DNA from: a virus
Reading direction: 5' to 3' (one strand)
DNA length: 22,840 nt
IMG/VR virus record: IMGVR_UViG_3300012002_000077
Coordinates: 1 to 22,840 of that record
Below the pieces are notes generated by a model that did not search any database, was not told the origin of the DNA, and was given only the letters and a program-made list of their open reading frames with translations. Positions 502-22,514 of this stretch are shown here, piece by piece (positions within the stretch are counted from its first letter, which is position 1; each line of letters begins with the position of its first letter). A program made the translations under genes and the position numbers.

Positions 502-520
502 TTTTCGGCCAGCCCAGACT

Positions 521-554
521 AAAAAAGCCTCCCTCGCACAATTGCAGGGAGGCT
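521..554 (-). terminator. intrinsic terminator ending the minus-strand late operon
   Basis: A perfect 9-bp stem, AGCCTCCCT (526-534) paired with AGGGAGGCT (546-554), has an 11-nt loop. On the minus strand it is followed at once by a run of six T (526-521). On the plus strand the T-run starts about 8 nt after the stem, so it may also stop the plus-strand nuclease transcript, less strongly. Confidence 0.8.
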
Positions 555-580
555 CACGGTCATTTTTCCCGGGTTAGAAA

Positions 581-1336: not shown

Positions 1337-1358
1337 GCCGCTAGAACGCTGCTAGGGC
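1337..1358 (-). repeat. degenerate member of the intergenic hairpin family (copy D)
   Basis: A stem with one mismatch, GCCgCTAG (1337-1344) against CTAGgGGC-type bases (1351-1358), contains the words GCTAGAACGCT and GCTAG that resemble copies A and B. It overlaps the TAG stop of the upstream 193-aa gene and precedes the holin ribosome-binding site. Confidence 0.4.
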
Positions 1359-3868: not shown

Positions 3869-4306
3869 TTACATTCCCCCCCTAATTACGACGTTTAGCT
3901 CGGTATCATCGGGTAGCGTGGGCACGTGGACATAGGCCAGTTGGGCTCCATCGTCCAGGTCCAGCTTGTACACGTTACCGGCCCCGGGTCCCACAGCGGT
4001 AACCACATTGTCGGCGTAAATAGTACACGTGTCCTGTAGATACCACTCGGAGACATCCGGGTCCCACAAACAGATGTACGCTTCCACGCTTTGATCTGCC
4101 GATCCATCACCAGTTAATCGGCCTTTGACCGTCAAATACCGAGGCGGAGCATAGGATCCATCGGCCACGGCGAAATGCGCGTCACTAGCATCAGTAGGTA
4201 AACTGTTAGTCGCACTAATAGCGTATTCCCCCCGCGTTCCATTTACCGTTCCGTCGGTCGTGGACAGTGGAGCGAGCCGATACATGGTTTCGATGCGTCT
4301 AGTCAT
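3869..4306 (-). CDS. unknown tail-region protein (145 aa)
   Basis: This is a beta-rich, Ser/Thr/Asp-rich protein without membrane segments or recognisable catalytic motifs. It has the look of a small structural or decoration protein. It lies between the beta-propeller gene and the lectin-like gene, with 1 bp separating its TAA from the next ATG, so it belongs to the fibre/receptor-binding block. Its leader contains hairpin copy A and the G-run ribosome-binding site also found before the sheath gene, which suggests it is made in quantity or under the same control as major tail proteins. No family is recognised. Confidence 0.55.
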   Translation of the reverse strand: MTRRIETMYRLAPLSTTDGTVNGTRGEYAISATNSLPTDASDAHFAVADGSYAPPRYLTVKGRLTGDGSADQSVEAYICLWDPDVSEWYLQDTCTIYADNVVTAVGPGAGNVYKLDLDDGAQLAYVHVPTLPDDTELNVVIRGGM

Positions 4307-4313
4307 TTTTTGT

Positions 4314-4351
4314 CCCCCTGAAAAACCGCTAGAAACGCTCTAGCAGCCGTT
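4314..4351 (-). promoter_or_regulatory. hairpin + T-run + G-run RBS element, copy A
   Basis: On the minus strand: a stem GCTAGA-GCGTT-TCTAGC, extendable by wobble pairs, then GGTTTTTC, then AGGGGG and an ATG 7 nt later. The 38 bases are identical to copy B at 14438-14475. The stem plus T-run resembles a weak terminator or attenuator placed directly before a ribosome-binding site. Confidence 0.7.
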
Positions 4352-4361
4352 TCTGTGTCAA

Positions 4362-5648
4362 TTAAAATCCGTGGTCCGTGATCGGCACGGCTAAATAATG
4401 GTTCGGTCTACGCGTGGGATCTGTCGGATCCGCTCGCATGAAAACCATGTTAGGTCCGCCAATATGGTACCTAACGAGATCATCCGATGCGTTAGTGCCA
4501 TAGAGGCCGATACCGTCAGCACAATACGGCACTGTACCATTCCATGCCGTTATGATATCGCCATTGCGTTTGTCAATGACCGCTAGATTTTCGTTGTCGT
4601 CGCCAAGGTAAACATATTTATCGTCACAAGTAATAGTCTCAGCGTTATTGCCACTCGAAAATGGCCTTGCGTCCCATAGCCATTGCCCGGTATATCCGTT
4701 ATAGGCTGTGATCTGCGCCCAATGTGTGCCGGATATTTCATGATCGTTGTGGCCTACGTAGAGCCTCCGACCGTCCGTCGCGCAGACGTTAAGAGACTTG
4801 GTGCCCCCGATCCAAGTGTGATCTACTGACCATAGGGGTGACTGCGTGCCCAGATCAATACTCCGGATATCGTAGTTACCAGTACCATCGGCACCTACCA
4901 GGTACACGCAATCATCGGAGATTGCCAGGTCATTGATAATGCCACCATGATTGTACGATCCCGCTGCACTAGGACTGCTAGCCATGTCTTCGTGTACGGT
5001 GAGATAAAATGTCGACGTAGCCCAACCGCATACCATGTACGATCCATTGCCCTGGGCGTACCGCGCGGGTTCTGATTTATCTGCGATATAACTGCATGAG
5101 AAGATGTCGGCCGGGTCGCAGTAATACACTCCGTTAGAGGTAGCCGAGGTAACGTATAGCCAGGTACCGTCCGCTTGCAGGTGAGTGATATCGCCACTCA
5201 TCGCTTTGGTCTCGCCTTGATCGGCGCCGTCTACCGGGGAGGCTTTGTAGGCCGTGTTCCCCTGCGCTTGGTAAATCCACTGACCGTCCGAGCACACGTA
5301 CAAAATGGTAGAGGCTCCGGCTCCGCCCTCGGTAATCCAGTCCTGTGCCCACCGGGTCGGCATACCACTGGACGGGCTGTAGACGGTAAATCGATCGCGG
5401 TAAGACGTGTTTTCGATCGCGCTATGTAGGTCGCTAAATTCGCGAATATGGGTAGATCCCAGCCAATGGATGTAATCACCCTGCAATTGCCAAACCCAGT
5501 TCAGCTCGCCATGGGGGACCGTAGCCCGGTATGCCCACCCATCGGCTCGCTTGGTCGCGTTCGGCTCGGTTACCGTGTTCCCCTCATCATCGGTGCGCCA
5601 ACGGATTTTGTCCGCGTCCGTTGGCTTACTGTAGACTCTCTCTGCCAT
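4362..5648 (-). CDS. beta-propeller tail fibre/receptor-binding-type protein (428 aa)
   Basis: An N-terminal region of about 110 residues is followed by roughly seven repeats of about 40 residues, each with a pattern like xDGxxLYVxxxx...VYxID. Examples are CSDGQWIYQAQGNTAY, ISDDCVYLVGADGTGNY, CATDGRRLYVGHNDH and CDDKYVYLGDDNENLAVID with RNGDIITAW. This is the signature of a PQQ/WD-like seven-bladed beta-propeller. In phage tails such domains usually bind surface sugars or proteins, or cap a fibre. It directly follows the gpI-like baseplate gene, the usual place for a tail fibre. The ribosome-binding site is AAGGGGAG about 10 nt before the ATG. The N-terminal part would attach it to the baseplate (inference). 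Confidence 0.65.
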   Translation of the reverse strand: MAERVYSKPTDADKIRWRTDDEGNTVTEPNATKRADGWAYRATVPHGELNWVWQLQGDYIHWLGSTHIREFSDLHSAIENTSYRDRFTVYSPSSGMPTRWAQDWITEGGAGASTILYVCSDGQWIYQAQGNTAYKASPVDGADQGETKAMSGDITHLQADGTWLYVTSATSNGVYYCDPADIFSCSYIADKSEPARYAQGNGSYMVCGWATSTFYLTVHEDMASSPSAAGSYNHGGIINDLAISDDCVYLVGADGTGNYDIRSIDLGTQSPLWSVDHTWIGGTKSLNVCATDGRRLYVGHNDHEISGTHWAQITAYNGYTGQWLWDARPFSSGNNAETITCDDKYVYLGDDNENLAVIDKRNGDIITAWNGTVPYCADGIGLYGTNASDDLVRYHIGGPNMVFMRADPTDPTRRPNHYLAVPITDHGF

Positions 5649-7411: not shown

Positions 7412-7433
7412 GGTCCCCCCTGGTTAACCGCTA
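7412..7433 (-). repeat. degenerate hairpin-family member (copy E)
   Basis: Nineteen plus-strand bases beginning CCCCCTG and ending ACCGCTAG align with copies A and B with three differences. Here the element contains the TAG stop of the gp25-like gene and the G-run RBS of the J gene. The second half of the stem is not conserved, so only the RBS-proximal half is shared. Confidence 0.4.
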
Positions 7434-10159: not shown

Positions 10160-12147
10160 GGGGTCACCGGTGCGCGATCGCCATACGTCCGGTTGATGGT
10201 TTCTTGCAGAGCCTCGGAGGCTGAGCGTTTAATTCGTTTTTCCAACTCTGCGGGCTCCATGTTCGGGGCTGAATTTACCGTGACCTTGATCCCGCCAACA
10301 TTGATCTTGTCCAGGCCGCGGCTGAGTCCCCCTAGCTTAGAATTTTGTCGTTTAATTGCTTTTTTCTCATCGTCAGTTAAATTGACCTGTCCGGTCAGCG
10401 CGCCTTCGATTGTCTTTTTCGCTCCCAGTTTTTTTGCTCGGCCTAGTACCTTGTCCGTCTGTTCGATGATCCATTTAATTGCGGCCTTGATATCTGCGAA
10501 CATGACGCGCAAGGGTTCCCAGGCGGCTTTTGCCACCTTCGCCGCGAACGCGAAGGCGTCACCAAGAGTGTCCGCGATCCATTTGATGGTTGTGTGAATT
10601 GCATCGAATATCCACTTGACCGCGCGATGAAATTTTTTGAACGCGTAAACGGCTACGCGCGCCCAGTAGCGCACGTCAATACCCATGGAGTTGAAAATGT
10701 CTTCAACTAAATCGCCGAATTCCCGGAAACCGTCGATAAACCAATTGATCGTGTCCGACGCAATATCGTATAACCACTGGAACAGTTTAATCGTTAGCTT
10801 CAGTGGGTAAATGAATGCCTTGAATATGATTACTTTGAATTTAATAAAATACTTGAGAATCGGCGCTAGCAGCCGGATTGCCAATGCAAGGCCCTGGATC
10901 AAATAGGGAATAATGGGTTTGAGCGCAGCCCATAACTCTACCAGCGTTTCCAGTAGAGCTTTGCCGAGTTCTATCACCGCTGGTTTGATCTCAGCCCATA
11001 GCTCGTTTAGGGCTGTGAACATTTCCGTGGCCATGGCCTTGACGGATTCGATCTGTGCGGGGTCTCCTATCCATTTTTTGAGTACACTATCTTGACCTAA
11101 TACGATTTTATGTAATTCATAAATGACCCAAGCGATCCCTGAAATAGCCGCTACCAGAATCCCCATTTTCACGCGTGCCCAGGCTCCGGCTATGCCCATC
11201 AAGCGCAGGGCTGCGGCTCCCCGACTAGCAGCGCTGGCCACACTTGCAATGTATTTACCTATTTTTTGGGCCACAAATGCGGCTAGAACGACGGATAGCG
11301 CCTTTGCAGCGCGTTTTGCGATTGCCAGCGCATGCTGGAGGTTGTCTCCGGTGGTAGCCCAGTCGCGGAACCTGGTAGCGGCCTCCGTGACGTAAGGGAT
11401 GATCGCACTGGCAATGGTATTGCGTATCCCGATTAGGACGGATTTAGCATCTAGCATCCGATCCTGGTATTCTTCGGCTGCTTTCGCTTGCGCTGGGGAG
11501 AACACTAGGCCCAGTCGCTTGGCCTCCGATACCATGCCTTTAATGCCCTTGGCTCCCTCGTTAAACAATGGCAATAAGGTGGCGCCAGTATCGCCAAAGA
11601 GCATCATGGCAAGAGCGGTCTTTCGGGACCCGTCTTGCATACTGGAAAAGGCGTCTGCTAGATCGTACAGTAGTTCATCTTGGTTTTTTAGCTCGCCGCT
11701 TGCGTCTTTGACAGACACGCCGATCGCGTCAAATGCACGTTGTTGCGTTTTTAGGCCCTGTGACGCTTCCAGTGCTCTTTTACCAACCTGGGTTAAGCCC
11801 TTGTTCAAATTACTCGTGTCACCTCCAGAACGCTCAATGGCGTAGGATAGGCCGAGGTAGGTTTCCAAGGCGACCCCGGTCGCCTGTGACAGCTTCGCCG
11901 CGGCATCGGCTCCGGATGTAAAATCTGAGGTGAAAAATTTAATTACGCGAGAACCAATGGCAATGGCTGCGACGGTCTTGGCAGCGGTTGCTAGCTTATT
12001 CATCTCGCGTCTGAATTTGCGAGCCTCACGCGCGGCAATGGAAAATTTCTTTTTGCTCTTGCCTACTTGTTTGTTGGTCGCTCGGAGTTCCCCCTTGTCA
12101 CTTTTGAAAGTGAGCTTGGTAAGTAACTCTCTGACCTTGATAGCCAT
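10156..12147 (-). CDS. tail tape measure protein (663 aa)
   Basis: This is the longest protein of the block. A basic N-terminus (KSKKKFSIAAREARKFRREMNKL) leads into the ATGVALETYLGLSYAIERSGGD and DALYDLADAFSSM / ALAMMLFGDTGATLLPLF-like features that mark phage tape measure proteins of the TP901/Mu type. Long hydrophobic helices follow (about 280-360 and 400-470), likely used for channel formation or membrane passage, and a basic amphipathic C-terminal third rich in Trp and Ile. Length fits a tail of roughly 100 nm, at about 0.15 nm per residue. It follows the frameshifting chaperone, with a TAATG overlap, and precedes the Dit-like gene. Confidence 0.9.
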   Translation of the reverse strand: MAIKVRELLTKLTFKSDKGELRATNKQVGKSKKKFSIAAREARKFRREMNKLATAAKTVAAIAIGSRVIKFFTSDFTSGADAAAKLSQATGVALETYLGLSYAIERSGGDTSNLNKGLTQVGKRALEASQGLKTQQRAFDAIGVSVKDASGELKNQDELLYDLADAFSSMQDGSRKTALAMMLFGDTGATLLPLFNEGAKGIKGMVSEAKRLGLVFSPAQAKAAEEYQDRMLDAKSVLIGIRNTIASAIIPYVTEAATRFRDWATTGDNLQHALAIAKRAAKALSVVLAAFVAQKIGKYIASVASAASRGAAALRLMGIAGAWARVKMGILVAAISGIAWVIYELHKIVLGQDSVLKKWIGDPAQIESVKAMATEMFTALNELWAEIKPAVIELGKALLETLVELWAALKPIIPYLIQGLALAIRLLAPILKYFIKFKVIIFKAFIYPLKLTIKLFQWLYDIASDTINWFIDGFREFGDLVEDIFNSMGIDVRYWARVAVYAFKKFHRAVKWIFDAIHTTIKWIADTLGDAFAFAAKVAKAAWEPLRVMFADIKAAIKWIIEQTDKVLGRAKKLGAKKTIEGALTGQVNLTDDEKKAIKRQNSKLGGLSRGLDKINVGGIKVTVNSAPNMEPAELEKRIKRSASEALQETINRTYGDRAPVTP

Positions 12148-12428
12148 TATATGCTCTCTAGCAGATGATTGACGCGGATTAGGTGGGCTGTCTCTAGCAC
12201 GTCAGCCAGAGACCACTGGGTCTGTACTGTAACCGGATCGTAGTGTCCCCCTGAAATTACTGTTTTGTAAGCCCAACCGTAACGAAGAGACGGTTCGATC
12301 GCCGTTATGACAGCGTCTAAGCGGGATTCTCGGTCGGCTCGCTCGGTGCGCTCGTCTGCTGATTCTCCCTCGTCTCTAGCCAGCTCTGCGCCTTGCGCCA
12401 AAGCTCGGCAAAGGTGTCGGTAGGATCG
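12147..12428 (-). CDS. tail assembly chaperone, -1 frameshift extension
   Basis: This frame is open from the slippery site to a TAA that overlaps the tape measure ATG. It has no plausible independent ATG (only a TTG at 12401). Entered by -1 slippage at 12434-12428, it adds 93 residues to the first 141 residues of the upstream protein, giving a product of about 234 aa. The extension is acidic and Arg-rich near the joint (ARDEGESADERTERADRES) and then carries a Trp/Tyr-containing helix-rich domain (IEPSLRYGWAYKTVISGG). In lambda (G/GT), P2 (E/E') and many others, such extensions recruit tail tube subunits to the tape measure. Confidence 0.75.
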   Translation of the reverse strand, partial: RSYRHLCRALAQGAELARDEGESADERTERADRESRLDAVITAIEPSLRYGWAYKTVISGGHYDPVTVQTQWSLADVLETAHLIRVNHLLESI

Positions 12429-12850
12429 AAAGGGCCAAAGTAATTCACCTGTAGCACGTAGTAGAGCAATTTATACAACTCTCCCCAATTACCGCCAGCG
12501 AATAATTCCGATAATACTTTGTCATTGGACAGGGCGAGTCTAACTTCTCTGTCGCCTTCGAGCTTGAGCCAAGTAGTGTGGGCGAGTATTTTGCTGACCA
12601 GTTTCGATCCGCCGTGTCGGGCAATTGCGCGGGGAGCACTGACCAGGGCCCTTTTGACGCTGTCCATGTCTACTTCAGCCTCCGGGTCCAGGCTGATATC
12701 ATCGCCAAAAATAGCTCCGGCTGCGTCACCCAGGGGCTCCGACAGTACCTCTACTAGCTCTACTTTGAGATCAAAGGCGCGGGCAAAGGACAAAGGTACA
12801 GTCTCGTACGCGTGTCCGTTAATTTCGGTGCGTTGGGGGGTCAAGGGCAT
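12317..12850 (-). CDS. tail assembly chaperone, zero-frame product (177 aa)
   Basis: This sits between tube and tape measure, the fixed place of the G-like chaperone. Residues include the conserved-looking HAYETVPLSFARAFDLKVELVEVLSEPLGDAAGAIF start and an all-helical middle (LVSKILAHTTWLKL, LSELFAGGNWGELYKLLYYVLQ). The final 36 residues after the slippery site are polar and low complexity (ENQQTSAPSEPTENPA), as expected when the zero-frame end is dispensable. The start has a GGAG ribosome-binding site. The two products coat the tape measure during tail assembly and are not in the virion. Confidence 0.8.
   Translation of the reverse strand: MPLTPQRTEINGHAYETVPLSFARAFDLKVELVEVLSEPLGDAAGAIFGDDISLDPEAEVDMDSVKRALVSAPRAIARHGGSKLVSKILAHTTWLKLEGDREVRLALSNDKVLSELFAGGNWGELYKLLYYVLQVNYFGPFDPTDTFAELWRKAQSWLETRENQQTSAPSEPTENPA
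12428..12434 (-). promoter_or_regulatory. programmed -1 ribosomal frameshift site (C CCT TTC)
   Basis: On the minus strand the heptamer CCCTTTC is in the zero frame as C-CCT-TTC, exactly the X-XXY-YYZ form. Slipping one base back moves both tRNAs to CCC and TTT and continues in the open extension frame. It lies 28 nt before the only possible TTG start in that frame. Confidence 0.7.
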
Positions 12851-12868: not shown

Positions 12869-13303
12869 TTAGGCGAGGCGGTTACCGCCAATATGGATTT
12901 CAGCGCCGGATAGCGTGATCGGCCAAGAGACCGAGTCTTGCTCCGTCTTGCCTACCAGGTCCGGCGCTTTCGTGATCCAACTTGTTTCAGCGTAGGCTTG
13001 GCTCCGGCCGTTAGTGTCGGAATAATTGAAAAATCCGGTACCTAATCCAGTTGCTTTGTCGTTATTATAGATGTCGCTCAGAACGTCGTTGTGTGCGGAG
13101 CCGTAAGAAATAATGACGGTAGCAGAAGCAATGGCATTGGGCTTTTTGCTGCGCACTACCGCGCCGTTGTGACCCTGAGTAATGGCCCAGTCGTCTTCGG
13201 AGAAGCTGATCGAGATTGCGTCCCCGTCAGCGAATTCACTTAGTGGTCCGTAACCCGCGACCGTCAGGCTGCACTCGGCCAGGTTCCAGTGGTAAGTAGC
13301 CAT
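12869..13303 (-). CDS. tail tube protein (DUF3277 family, 144 aa)
   Basis: The pattern TYHWNLAECSLTVAGYGPLSEF then DGDAISISFSEDDWAITQGHNGAVVRSKKPN and the C-terminal GAEIHIGGN are the hallmarks of the DUF3277 tail tube family. The length (about 145) is typical. It follows the sheath gene, as expected, and precedes the chaperone pair. The leader has hairpin copy C and a five-G ribosome-binding site 9 nt before the ATG, consistent with high or separately tuned expression of this abundant protein. Confidence 0.85.
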   Translation of the reverse strand: MATYHWNLAECSLTVAGYGPLSEFADGDAISISFSEDDWAITQGHNGAVVRSKKPNAIASATVIISYGSAHNDVLSDIYNNDKATGLGTGFFNYSDTNGRSQAYAETSWITKAPDLVGKTEQDSVSWPITLSGAEIHIGGNRLA

Positions 13304-13311
13304 TTTGTTTA

Positions 13312-13347
13312 TCCCCCTGAGACAGCCGTTAGAGCGTGCCTAACGGC
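13312..13347 (-). promoter_or_regulatory. hairpin + G-run RBS element, copy C
   Basis: GCCGTTAG (13325-13332) and CTAACGGC (13340-13347) form a perfect 8-bp stem with a 7-nt loop. On the minus strand it ends about 7 nt before CAGGGGG. Position and layout match copies A and B, but the stem bases differ in both arms with pairing kept. The T-run is lost. Confidence 0.6.
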
Positions 13348-13357
13348 CGTTTAGCTG

Positions 13358-14431
13358 TTATTGATAGTTGAGCACACCGACGGTAACCGACACGTCCTTG
13401 ACTCCACCGGACAGGAGCCAAGTGGCGCTAATCGTCGCCTCACGCGCGAGAATAGATGCACTCGAGACAGTGCTGATATCCGGGATAGACAGAGTCAGAC
13501 TATCCGCCTGGGCATGACCAGCACCAACACTGCGCGAGTAAATTTTGCGGATTACTCCGCCGAGCATTGCGAGACCGGGATTAGTGTAAGGGATCTTTTT
13601 GTTGCGTTCGGACAAATCCAATTTGAGTTGAGCGATCCCCTCCTTTACCCGCGCTTTGACAAAATCCTTGTACACTTTTTCGTCGATCCAGGTACCATCA
13701 AAACAGGTCCCTGGCGCAGTAGCTCCGACGGAGAGTAGAGTCAGGTAGTGATTGCCGTTGTAGCCTTCAATATTCCCTTTCTCGGTGCTATCTACCTCAC
13801 CGTTATCCACACTGATACCCGTAAGGGTTTTGTCGTACCAAACGGTAGAGGTAGTCTCCAGATCGGCGGATAAGCCCTTTGCGAGCCAGGCCAGATCGGC
13901 GTAATCAGTGTCGGTGGAGTACCAGATCCCGGCGGACGTGTTAGAGGCTGTGTTAAGAGTCTCAAACACGTTACCCCCAGTAGCCGCAGCTACAGCCGCG
14001 GCGCTGGTTTGGGCCAGGGCCAATCGGTTATTGGCCGCAGCCCACTCACACACCGCTTGCACGTCGGCATCAGCGCGACTCATGCACGCGATGCCGTAAA
14101 ACTGCTCTACCCCAGCGCTGTCCATCGCAGTTTCGATAGAGGTAAGGCTGTCTTTCAGCTCGTCGCCAGCGCTCTCATATTCTACTTCACCGACGATAAT
14201 ATCCGTGGGATGCGTAGTCTGGGAGTAGTAGGTAGCGATAGCCGACTTGGTAGACGTCGACAAATCGTCGTCGTTCTGAGCCTCATTGTTACTCTGGTAC
14301 ACGCGGTAGGTATCATCGAAAGTGGCCTCTACCGCTGCCGTAGCCAGCAAAATACGACCAAAATTGGTCCGGCTCACCTGCCCAGCGTTACCCACCACAC
14401 TGACGGTGATATCAGCATTGTTTGTCGCCAT
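13358..14431 (-). CDS. tail sheath protein (DUF3383 family, 357 aa)
   Basis: The N-terminus (ITVSVVGNAGQVSRTNFGRILLAT) and YQSNNEAQNDDDLSTSTKSAIATYYSQ, plus HPTDIIVGEV, are typical of the DUF3383 sheath family of small contractile phages. The central part contains a NNRLALAQTSA beta-alpha core. The C-terminal domain (YSRSVGAGHAQADSLTLSIPDISTVS) carries the strand-swapping end that links neighbouring subunits. It precedes the tube gene. The leader has hairpin copy B and a six-G ribosome-binding site 5 nt before the ATG. Confidence 0.85.
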   Translation of the reverse strand: MATNNADITVSVVGNAGQVSRTNFGRILLATAAVEATFDDTYRVYQSNNEAQNDDDLSTSTKSAIATYYSQTTHPTDIIVGEVEYESAGDELKDSLTSIETAMDSAGVEQFYGIACMSRADADVQAVCEWAAANNRLALAQTSAAAVAAATGGNVFETLNTASNTSAGIWYSTDTDYADLAWLAKGLSADLETTSTVWYDKTLTGISVDNGEVDSTEKGNIEGYNGNHYLTLLSVGATAPGTCFDGTWIDEKVYKDFVKARVKEGIAQLKLDLSERNKKIPYTNPGLAMLGGVIRKIYSRSVGAGHAQADSLTLSIPDISTVSSASILAREATISATWLLSGGVKDVSVTVGVLNYQ

Positions 14432-14437
14432 TTTGTC

Positions 14438-14475
14438 CCCCCTGAAAAACCGCTAGAAACGCTCTAGCAGCCGTT
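14438..14475 (-). promoter_or_regulatory. hairpin + T-run + G-run RBS element, copy B
   Basis: This is identical over 38 bases to copy A at 4314-4351, with one extra G in the RBS run. On the minus strand it reads as stem GCTAGA-GCGTT-TCTAGC, then TTTTT, then CAGGGGGG and the sheath ATG. It fills most of the gap between the tail terminator gene and the sheath gene. Confidence 0.7.
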
Positions 14476-14484
14476 ACTCGTGTC

Positions 14485-16037: not shown

Positions 16038-16427
16038 TCAGCCAAGCGTAGAAACATCGGTAACGTACGTAACCCACCACGGATAGGCTGCAGCGCGAGC
16101 TAGCGCGATAGCCTGAGTGCGATCACCGTAGCTCTCCGATAGGGCCCCGGTGCGTACGCTTTTGATCCCGCTGGACACCGTCCACTGGTGACGCTCGCGC
16201 GCGGCTCTCACCCATTCCGCGATGCCCAACCACACTTTCGTCGGGTGAGTGATATCCTCGCCAGCATCATCTACAAAAGTGTTATTAGTGAAATCGTCGA
16301 AATCTTCGGCTGCAGCGGTTAACCAAACAGTTAGCTCGGTGTCTTCGTCATCACCACTAATGCCGAGATACGATTTAATATCTGTTTTGTACTCCGCCCA
16401 AGTGTATGTAGATACCGCTGTGGCCAC
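16038..16427 (-). CDS. gp6-like head-tail connector/adaptor (129 aa)
   Basis: The N-terminal segment (YTWAEYKTDIKSYLGISGDDEDTELTVWLTAAAEDFDDFTNN) is the helical pattern of HK97 gp6-like adaptors, followed by a helix-rich core with AEWVRAARERHQW. Such proteins form the ring beneath the portal. It starts with GTG overlapping the TAG of the upstream gene as TAGTG. It follows the capsid block, as usual. Confidence 0.65.
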   Translation of the reverse strand: MATAVSTYTWAEYKTDIKSYLGISGDDEDTELTVWLTAAAEDFDDFTNNTFVDDAGEDITHPTKVWLGIAEWVRAARERHQWTVSSGIKSVRTGALSESYGDRTQAIALARAAAYPWWVTYVTDVSTLG

Positions 16428-16837
16428 TATTGATTTACCTTCGTCTTTTTGCGCTTTTTACCGCGCTGACGACGATTGGTAGAATATCGGGTAGCGGGTA
16501 CCGAGGTGGAGGCCGTAGAGGTGGTACCCGTACCCGAGTCGTTAATGTCTCGCCCGTCGGTGACAGCCTCGCCAGAGTCCCCCCTAGACACCTCTGGGTC
16601 ATTAGCTGGCACCGACGGGGTTGACGGTTGCGTGTCCCCCGGGCGGTTACCCTTCCCGACTCGCACTAATTCAGCCACTACGTGTGGAGGCCGTTGGAGC
16701 CGTTCGCCCACCTTGTGTTTTTCCCCGGACAGCCACACATCGGATGTCAGAATAACAGTGTCAGTAGGCGCTTTCCGCTTTTTCGCTACCCCGATATACT
16801 CGGCGTATGCGGGGTGTAGCCAGTGAGGTACTTGCAT
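16427..16837 (-). CDS. unknown connector-region protein with disordered basic tail (136 aa)
   Basis: A globular N-terminal part (residues about 1-62, including VILTSDVWLSGEKHKVGERL, a small SH3-like pattern like its 71-aa neighbour) is followed by a long Ser/Thr/Asp/Gly-rich linker. It ends in a highly basic tail, RRQRGKKRKKTKVNQ, likely to touch nucleic acid or an acidic partner. It lies between capsid and the gp6-like gene, so it may be a head decoration or a connector protein. No family is recognised. Confidence 0.45.
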   Translation of the reverse strand: MQVPHWLHPAYAEYIGVAKKRKAPTDTVILTSDVWLSGEKHKVGERLQRPPHVVAELVRVGKGNRPGDTQPSTPSVPANDPEVSRGDSGEAVTDGRDINDSGTGTTSTASTSVPATRYSTNRRQRGKKRKKTKVNQ

Positions 16838-16889
16838 TATCAGGCTCTACGTTTGTTTGTTTATTTGTTTGTTTCAATCTCTACCCGAA

Positions 16890-18467: not shown

Positions 18468-19018
18468 TAGTGTCCCCCTGAAATATTGGCGACTGCAGAT
18501 TGCAGCGCCGCTAGGATGTCGTCCGTATCGGTCTCTGAGTCCGATACGGGCTCGGTTTCTTGTGGTTGGGTCAGTTCGTATAATTCGACTCGAGTTGCCG
18601 GATTAGCTGGGTAGACCACTGGGCTAAGCTCGTACAGCTCTAAGTCGGTTAGGTAGGTGATTCCGTTGCGCTCGTAGCTGCGTACCACGTCATAGGTAAA
18701 TGACATGCCGTTAATCGATCCTAGTTCGATATTTGTCATGACTTCCGCAGCTTCGGAAGTAGTCGCCAATTGAGCAGTAAAATAAAGTCCCCAATCATCT
18801 TGATAGATCCGCGTAGCCACCCCGATTGGCATTGCCCATGGACCGATTAGGTTGGCATGGCCGTAAAATAGGGGTAGCTGCGCGGATAATGCCAGAGTGC
18901 GAGTAAATGCACCTTGTTCGATAATGTCTCCGTCGGAGTCAGCGGGTGGGCCAAAAACGGCAGCGTAGCCGCGCAGGCCGTAGATTGTGGCGGGGTGTAC
19001 AGGATTGGAGTCAGTCAT
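18467..19018 (-). CDS. HK97-type prohead protease (183 aa)
   Basis: The sequence GYAAVFGPPADSDGDIIEQGAFTRTL is the usual start. The catalytic triad region is visible: His in FYGHA (about residue 54), Ser in INGMSFTY (about 106) and an acidic Glu in the LYELSPVVYPA motif (about 131). It processes the capsid delta domain. The start is set at ATG 19018. An in-frame TTG at 19024 lies 6 nt after an AGG and would add two residues. It lies between portal and capsid genes. Confidence 0.85.
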   Translation of the reverse strand: MTDSNPVHPATIYGLRGYAAVFGPPADSDGDIIEQGAFTRTLALSAQLPLFYGHANLIGPWAMPIGVATRIYQDDWGLYFTAQLATTSEAAEVMTNIELGSINGMSFTYDVVRSYERNGITYLTDLELYELSPVVYPANPATRVELYELTQPQETEPVSDSETDTDDILAALQSAVANISGGH

Positions 19019-19059
19019 GATCAAAAAAGACCTATATTATAGTTATATTGTTCTTTCTG

Positions 19060-20354: not shown

Positions 20355-21890
20355 CTACATTATAACCCTGGGTCCCCTGGATTTTTTACCCTCGAGGTAG
20401 TTAATGGCCTGCGTCATACAATCCACCTCCTCATCGTGCTGTCGGCCGGGAAATCCCGTTACGGCCTTTAGCCAATACGCGACCCACGGATATTCTTCAG
20501 GGTCCGGTATCCAGACTCTACCGGCCTCTACTACTGGCGTAATGGCCGTAGCGCGCTGGACCTTTGACTCGCCTTGCACCTTCACCGGGGTTATTCCCGG
20601 AATTTCATTTTCTAGTGCTTTTATCACTGACCGACCGTTGCTCTGAGCCTCGATTAGAATACGAGTGAGTTTCATTTCCACGTAACGTTCACGTAGATCT
20701 TTAATGGCGCGTATGGAGGCCGATAACCCCATTTTCTCCCGGCGCTGGCCTACCAAATAATATTGGTTGCCTTGTACTCCCCAAACCTGAATGCAGGCTG
20801 GATCGGTATTTCTGGTTGCCTTGGCTGATTTGAGGTCGTTAAAGTCGCAACTTGCAATTAAGTAATTAAAGTCGGGCCGATCTTTTCCAAGGTAGTAATT
20901 AAAATAATCGCGCTTGAATATAGAGCCGACTTCCGGTGCGGGATCCTGCTGATACTGAGCCGAGTAAGCCCAGGATCCGAGATCCTCCTTGATCACTTTT
21001 AATTGTTTTTCTGAGACCCGCTCGGGGTGGAGTAGCTCGCCTTTCGTTTTGCGTGGGTCAGCCCATCCGATAGGGGAGGAAAACGTTTTTTTAGGTTCGT
21101 ACTCCATGGGGATCGATAGGTAGACCCAATCCCCGTATTCTTTGCTACGCACGTGGCCCACGGGATCATTAGTATTCAGCCTCTGCTGGATGTATAACTC
21201 GATCGCTTCCGGCCCGGATTTACGCGTGGAAAAGGTCGTGTCGCGCCACTGATTGATAGTGTCAAGCTGGGCTTTATCACTATAGGCTTTACTCGCATCA
21301 ATAATGTCGTCACCGATTAACACTTGGGCGCGAAGACCGATAAATGATTTACCGGGAGTTTTGCTGTAGCGGATACCACCGGCTGTATTAGCCCAATCTC
21401 CTTTTGCATCCTGTGATTGATCAATTTTCCAGCGTGGAAGGAAGGTTTGGCGGTACCAATCAGAGGTGACTAGCGCACGGTGTCTGCTGGAGTCGCGGTT
21501 AACCACTCCATCGGTGGCGGAGGCGACCAAAAACGTGGTCTCTGGCTGATCTACCCATACCCACGATGGGAAATCCACGGAAGCCAATATTGATTTCGAA
21601 CTTCCGGGAGGGACACAGATTAAGAGGCGATAGAACTCGCGGTCCCACAGCGCTTGCAGGTGATCCGCGATAGCATCATGGTGCCAATTCCATTGCAGGG
21701 GTTCAGTTTTGGGGTGTAGGACGTGCCAAGAACGCCGTGCAAATTGCCCTAGATCGCGCTTGCACAGCTCGTATTCTAACGCTGACCGTACCTCGGCCTG
21801 AGGTAAGGAGGTTAAGACGTCGATAGCCTCGGAGCGGTCTATAGGCCGTTTGGGGCCGTCTGACGGGATGTCAGCCGTCAGACTGACCAT
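20355..21890 (-). CDS. terminase large subunit (511 aa)
   Basis: The ATPase part has the Walker A variant VPPGSSKSI (about residues 94-101), a PPGSxKS form known in this terminase group, and a Walker B LIGDDIID (about 191-198). The nuclease part shows SCDFNDL (about 348-354), an Glu in ILIEAQSNG (about 414) and HDEEVDC (about 485-491), together the expected metal-binding set of the RNase H-like domain. It packages DNA into the procapsid. The start is ATG 21890 with a GGAG site 8 nt upstream. A longer frame would begin with TTG inside the small terminase gene. Confidence 0.9.
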   Translation of the reverse strand: MVSLTADIPSDGPKRPIDRSEAIDVLTSLPQAEVRSALEYELCKRDLGQFARRSWHVLHPKTEPLQWNWHHDAIADHLQALWDREFYRLLICVPPGSSKSILASVDFPSWVWVDQPETTFLVASATDGVVNRDSSRHRALVTSDWYRQTFLPRWKIDQSQDAKGDWANTAGGIRYSKTPGKSFIGLRAQVLIGDDIIDASKAYSDKAQLDTINQWRDTTFSTRKSGPEAIELYIQQRLNTNDPVGHVRSKEYGDWVYLSIPMEYEPKKTFSSPIGWADPRKTKGELLHPERVSEKQLKVIKEDLGSWAYSAQYQQDPAPEVGSIFKRDYFNYYLGKDRPDFNYLIASCDFNDLKSAKATRNTDPACIQVWGVQGNQYYLVGQRREKMGLSASIRAIKDLRERYVEMKLTRILIEAQSNGRSVIKALENEIPGITPVKVQGESKVQRATAITPVVEAGRVWIPDPEEYPWVAYWLKAVTGFPGRQHDEEVDCMTQAINYLEGKKSRGPRVIM

Positions 21891-22494
21891 TGTTGTCTCC
21901 GTCCCCACCAAAGGTGGCTAGCAGTGCGCCGATCTGCTCAGTGGATAGGTCGGATACCGCCACCCTGGCGCGTAATTTCAATTCTTCGCCGTCTTTGCCG
22001 GTCAACTCAATCCGCTTAGGTGGGGTTAGCCCAGCCAGGCTAAGGATTTCTTTAGCACTAGCTAGCCGCGTTGCAGGTGGTACTACACTGCGCTCACCAG
22101 TTACATCACCATGGCGATCCAAGACAGGCTCGGTGTCTCCCCGGTCCATTTGACCATCGCGGAGGGCAACTAAGATCCCGGCTGTTTCAGCCGCAGAATC
22201 AACTAGCACTTGACGCGCTAGCTCCCGGGCTTGTGTGCGATCTTCCAGTCGCGCTGATAGCTCGGTGTAGTCATAGGCGCGGGCTCGCTCGACCCAGTCA
22301 TACCGCATTGAGAGTTTTGCATAGAGGGAGACTGAAAAAGCCTTTTTTCCCTCGCTCTCGTAACGCTCGATTAACCGTCGGACGGTTCGGGCTGGGCCCA
22401 GTGATAAATAATCCAAAAACCGCTGATAGTCTCTAGGCTTCTCCCCCTCTAGCTGGTCCCATGGGTTGATTTTGTCTTTAGTGCCGGAATCCAT
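21871..22494 (-). CDS. terminase small subunit (207 aa)
   Basis: An N-terminal helix-turn-helix region starts with NPWDQLEGEKPRDYQRFLDYLSLGPARTVRRL, typical of small terminases that recognise the packaging site. A helical oligomerisation region with WVERARAYDY follows, then an acidic Gly/Asp-rich tail (GGDGDNNGQSDG). It overlaps the large terminase start by 20 bp. A perfect inverted repeat covers its start codon (22486-22514) and the possible GGGG site is 18 nt away, so translation starts are probably limited. Confidence 0.8.
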   Translation of the reverse strand: MDSGTKDKINPWDQLEGEKPRDYQRFLDYLSLGPARTVRRLIERYESEGKKAFSVSLYAKLSMRYDWVERARAYDYTELSARLEDRTQARELARQVLVDSAAETAGILVALRDGQMDRGDTEPVLDRHGDVTGERSVVPPATRLASAKEILSLAGLTPPKRIELTGKDGEELKLRARVAVSDLSTEQIGALLATFGGDGDNNGQSDG

Positions 22495-22514
22495 ATTATA
22501 GTTGTATGGATTCC
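22486..22514. promoter_or_regulatory. perfect inverted repeat over the small terminase start codon
   Basis: GGAATCCATA (22486-22495) and TATGGATTCC (22505-22514) are exact reverse complements around a 9-nt spacer. The ATG (22492-22494) lies in one arm and the GGGG site just outside the other. It may be an RNA hairpin hiding the start or a binding site for the small terminase or a repressor. Confidence 0.65.

Follow-up and report, generated by a model that had tools for sequence, protein, structure and literature searches.

A small phage with a contractile tail carries, in its late operon, three copies of a repeated intercistronic leader, 53–55 nt long, in which a hairpin is followed directly by a strong G-rich Shine-Dalgarno sequence. 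The window analyzed here is a 22,840-base virus record that covers the late region of this phage, and the three leaders (A, B and C) are duplicated at defined gene junctions, lie on the transcribed minus strand and retain their base pairing where their sequences have diverged. The explanation that accounts best for these observations, to which we give about an even chance, is that A, B and C are duplicates of a single leader that would provide uncoupled, strong translation starts together with probable protection of RNA ends. The leaders and their component elements are as follows.

4307–4361, minus strand: copy A, a complete 55-nt intercistronic leader between the gene at 4362–5648 and the gene at 3869–4306 (RNA fold −15.1 kcal/mol, z −2.5)
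4324–4348, minus strand: hairpin of A, GGCTGCTAGA-GCGTT-TCTAGCGGTT
4314–4319, minus strand: Shine-Dalgarno sequence of A, AGGGGG (predicted anti-SD duplex −9.4 kcal/mol)
14432–14484, minus strand: copy B, a 53-nt leader before the tail sheath gene (fold −12.7 kcal/mol, z −0.8)
14448–14472, minus strand: hairpin of B, identical in sequence to that of A
14437–14443, minus strand: Shine-Dalgarno sequence of B, AGGGGGG (predicted anti-SD duplex −10.3 kcal/mol)
13304–13357, minus strand: copy C, a diverged 54-nt leader before the tail tube gene, identified by alignment (fold −17.5 kcal/mol, z −2.8)
13322–13350, minus strand: hairpin of C, 12 bp, with six arm changes relative to A and pairing kept
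13313–13318, minus strand: Shine-Dalgarno sequence of C, AGGGGG

All recognised late genes are carried on the minus strand in the order terminase, portal, protease, capsid, tail terminator, sheath, tube, chaperone, tape measure, hub, baseplate and fibre-region genes. The operon is tightly packed such that most neighbouring genes overlap or sit no more than 20 nt apart, and its longest true spacers are the ones that A, B and C fill, compared with 52, 42, 36 and 35 nt elsewhere. An apparent 169-nt gap before the tape-measure gene is occupied by a second-frame ORF that extends the chaperone gene; the arrangement at 12147–12850 (minus strand), where the gene for a tail assembly chaperone is overlapped by an ORF in a second frame upstream of the tape measure gene, resembles that of G/GT-type programmed frameshifts. 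The gene at 16427–16837 is preceded by a spacer of AAAC/AAAT repeats (GAAACAAACAAATAAACAAACAAACG, 16838–16870, minus strand), 52 nt long and without a hairpin. Sheath and tube are abundant tail proteins, and from one long message phages must supply some virion proteins in hundreds of copies and others in small numbers. The genes behind the leaders are listed below.

13358–14431, minus strand: tail sheath gene, behind B (phrog_205, E 1e-41)
12869–13303, minus strand: tail tube-type gene, behind C (phrog_280 'virion structural protein', E 3e-22; weak Pfam KPP10_Orf10), called tube because of its place after the sheath gene
3869–4306, minus strand: gene behind A, 145 aa; a family search gave no match and structure prediction no usable fold (pLDDT 35)

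A preceding sequence-only reading of this DNA had reported that A (4314–4351) and B (14438–14475) are identical over 38 bp, which is exactly the case, and when one indel in the G-run is allowed the likeness spans the whole spacer. Alignment of A, B and C reveals the repeated unit to be this entire spacer, namely the upstream stop codon TAA, 6–10 nt, AACGG, a 10–12-bp stem, TCAGGGGG (the Shine-Dalgarno segment, invariant in all three), an A-rich spacer and the ATG. The core sequence of the leaders reads TCAGGGGGA(C/T), and each copy is fused to AGGGGG(G) and ends 14–18 nt before the ATG. A search pattern combining the G-run with both stem halves matched three times in the window and not once in 100 shuffles. 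It is the repetition, position and kept pairing of the leaders that are unusual, not the stability of their hairpins, for which A and B rank about 13th and C second among minus-strand hairpins.

Copy C had been described as altered in both arms with pairing maintained, and this is borne out: six arm positions differ between C and A, and all 12 pairs form in C, compared with 11 of 12 in A. The change affects both sides of one pair (C-G to U-A), and the other changes are one-sided, via G-U pairs or repair of a mismatch. An equal number of random substitutions would keep as many pairs with P ~0.0007, a value drawn from one independent comparison (A/B versus C). In each of the three leaders, the RNA of the transcribed strand is predicted to fold more stably than its complement (−15.1 versus −10.2 kcal/mol for A, −12.7 versus −8.1 for B and −17.5 versus −15.3 for C), which is what G-U pairs predict for RNA. 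Moreover, of 27 starts, those of A, B and C have some of the strongest predicted pairing to the anti-SD (−9.4 to −10.3 kcal/mol), together with the starts of the capsid gene, the baseplate J gene and two genes of the fibre region, and in the predicted folds the Shine-Dalgarno sequence is unpaired.

How would such a leader act? We propose that the ribosome finishing the upstream gene would depart and that the hairpin would form in the mRNA just past the upstream stop codon, separating the upstream gene from the next Shine-Dalgarno sequence, which directly follows the hairpin and is predicted to stay accessible. The tight gene-to-gene coupling of the operon would thus be broken, and the sheath gene, the tube gene and gene 3869 would start translation afresh and strongly, with higher copy number as the presumed benefit. 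The hairpin would probably also shield RNA ends from exonucleases, the upstream ends being those left by cleavage or drop-off and the downstream ends those left by processing. Protection or uncoupling is more likely than a function in keeping the Shine-Dalgarno sequence free, because shuffling the hairpin alters the predicted openness of the start region little or not at all, and the idea that the hairpin mainly keeps this site open accordingly finds little support. The leaders may also act as RNase stop points or translation enhancers, as the sequence-only reading had put forward. Counting against the proposed mechanism, sheath and tube are produced by distant relatives that lack leaders of this kind.

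These distant relatives (L007, KPP10, D6E and AsaM-56) have readable spacers of 2–14 nt before sheath or tube, with no room for a hairpin; for D6E only the tube junction is counted, its record annotating no gene for some distance upstream of the sheath. Because the spacers at the same junctions are this short, the leaders look like additions in the present phage lineage. Searches for close relatives (sheath, terminase, baseplate J and capsid proteins against viral contigs; terminase against species genomes; one alignment search) returned none, the nearest standing at ~30% identity. The sequence-only reading had pointed to the wider genome and relatives as the place to look for the motif; the search recovers three copies in the window and no other, by pattern or blastn, in viral contigs, species genomes, phages or plasmids, which does not imply absence in close relatives. 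Rfam covariance models gave no match at the elements at E up to 1.

Several pattern matches outside the window were rejected. There were 22 in 84,980 species genomes, and the 15 inspected are all unrelated to the leaders. They fall for the most part into two sites: an orthologous one in Exiguobacterium, where a T-run flanks the hairpin on the opposite strand in the manner of an intrinsic terminator, and one in Comamonadaceae/Burkholderiales. The match L005, from a viral contig of 36% GC, is not located at a start of this type. A looser pattern retrieved six unrelated GC-rich phage contigs (L034, L035 and L045–L048) with a hairpin before CAGGGGG at the major tail protein gene, which we regard as a pattern-biased look-alike and not a homologue. 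In these contigs (for example L034:5512–5571) GCCGCTTCTAGCGGC and then TATCAGGGGG stand directly before the gene, and hairpin and Shine-Dalgarno sequence are nearly invariant in all six, yet overlap coding sequence.

Within the window, the sequence-only reading had described a five-member family, each member fused to a G-run immediately before a start codon, with D and E as degenerate copies. These two and a further look-alike are as follows.

1337–1358, minus strand: copy D of that reading, CTAG-loop-CTAG with no G-run and not at a start; not above chance
7412–7433, minus strand: copy E of that reading, consisting of the right half plus a G-run ahead of the baseplate J gene, in a spacer that does not fold into the stem of the leaders; not above chance
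18468–18512, minus strand: look-alike leader of the major capsid gene, an unrelated hairpin (18488–18509) followed by the identical TTTCAGGGGGACA; z −1.5, weak

Fusion to a G-run and placement before a start hold for A, B and C; D has no G-run, and the next ATG is ~28 nt downstream of it, and E has the G-run but only the right half. Against A, D and E score 24 and 23, within the range of the best scores reached in random sequence of the same composition (mean 20, up to 26). The family is thereby reduced to three members, one capsid-gene look-alike and two doubtful fragments, and the proposal of a selected RNA structure joined to a ribosome-binding site before the sheath, tube and a fibre-region gene stands for A, B and C with D and E excluded. 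The capsid-gene hairpin, which that reading missed, is 9 bp, bulged and located in the end of the upstream gene; because it is only mildly unusual and lies within that gene, the resemblance may be convergence or chance. A candidate site with TTTCAGGGGGAC at 12245–12256 was rejected as it lies inside a coding frame.

Other structures were observed at head-gene starts. A perfect 10-bp inverted repeat at 22486–22514, GGAATCCATA-N9-TATGGATTCC, spans the ATG of the terminase small subunit and lies directly beside AAGGGG (fold −14.7 kcal/mol, z −4.0); it may hide the start, as a translational switch, or be an operator. The −10-like sequence CTATAATATRG occurs on the minus strand exactly at two head-gene starts (19032–19042 and 22491–22501) and with two mismatches before the portal gene (20355–20365), and its count in the window is not above chance.

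An alternative hypothesis, which we consider unlikely, is that the leaders adjust the proportions of the late mRNAs by acting as attenuators or weak intrinsic terminators. Two copies had been said to end in a T-run, and indeed A and B, but not C, read stem and then TTTTTC as an intrinsic terminator would. However, C has the most stable stem and reads GGCTGTCTC, without a U-tract, so termination is not a function common to all copies. A GC-rich stem with a U-tract in every copy would define an intrinsic-terminator family, and because C lacks the tract the leaders are not one. Part of the A tract is moreover paired within the stem, a promoter search after the leaders found none, and a terminator scan of the window flagged none of the three copies. 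The late operon ends in a far stronger, proper intrinsic terminator at 520–555 (minus strand; −21.8 kcal/mol, U6), which further weakens the idea.

Could the hairpin instead be a binding site for an RNA-binding protein or nuclease, encoded by phage or host, that controls these genes jointly? The same hairpin at separate genes, identical in A and B, is what this hypothesis predicts. It is nonetheless quite unlikely, as the loops of A (GCGTT) and C (CACGC) are unlike, the hairpin leaves the Shine-Dalgarno sequence uncovered and no candidate protein was recognised in the window. A stem of 10–12 bp is also short for RNase III. A further possibility is that a portable hairpin and Shine-Dalgarno unit spreads among the intergenic spacers of the lineage and marks out virion genes as a post-transcriptional set, which a single dedicated factor for RNA binding or processing would read; this is highly doubtful.

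A DNA-level site with an incidental hairpin, whether operator, promoter or a recombination-boundary repeat marking modules, might be suspected since A and B flank ~10 kb of tail genes and inverted repeats can be operators, as proposed for the ESAS elements (PMC3203893). This is very improbable: the DNA palindrome is poor (only 8 of 12 pairs in the A stem are Watson-Crick), all copies share one orientation at a near-fixed distance from the Shine-Dalgarno sequence, and no shared promoter hexamers were seen. A recent accidental spacer duplication, kept without special function, would explain the identity of A and B and the leaderless distant relatives, but is given a similarly slim chance as the diverged C retains every pair together with the invariant Shine-Dalgarno segment.

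The duplicated-leader explanation can be compared with known systems. One precedent is the E. coli gal operon, where exoribonuclease is reportedly blocked by an 8-bp hairpin close to an intercistronic junction (PMC11925234). The leaders are similar in that a short hairpin, predicted in the transcribed strand, lies near a junction of a polycistronic mRNA between genes of the same operon, all on the minus strand, and end protection is proposed; unlike them, the galE hairpin is inside the next gene and its function was measured, whereas here the hairpin abuts the Shine-Dalgarno sequence in a repeated unit and its function is a putative one. The leader of the phage T4 gene 32 mRNA is processed by RNase E at a site 71 nt ahead of the start (PMC3014915), and this mRNA likewise presents a structured leader upstream of a Shine-Dalgarno sequence in a phage polycistronic message; the present leaders, in contrast, have no known cleavage site or autoregulation.

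The closest resemblance in layout is to the SAS and ESAS elements of cluster K mycobacteriophages (Pope et al. 2011), in which 11–19 copies with the core GGGATAGGAGCCC accompany non-structural genes, and the ESAS are imperfect 17-bp inverted repeats for which the authors found little support for RNA pairing (PMC3203893). Both systems place a short repeat at the ribosome-binding position of several genes, within a few nucleotides of the starts and in one orientation, in spacers that exceed 50 bp and in one phage group only, with an inverted repeat just upstream (in about half of SAS). The present leaders differ in having three copies, structural or fibre-region genes behind them and 10–12-bp arms with RNA pairing kept, and their core, compared by eye with the published sequence, does not come within two mismatches of the 13-bp SAS core; judged by sequence, they are not members of the SAS/ESAS family. 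If the duplicated-leader explanation is correct, a repeated, structure-kept leader marking high-copy tail genes would be a compact way to set protein ratios, and might be usable as a strong leader part. The leaders also represent a case of phage start-associated repeats in which, unlike the mycobacteriophage ESAS, RNA pairing has been kept.
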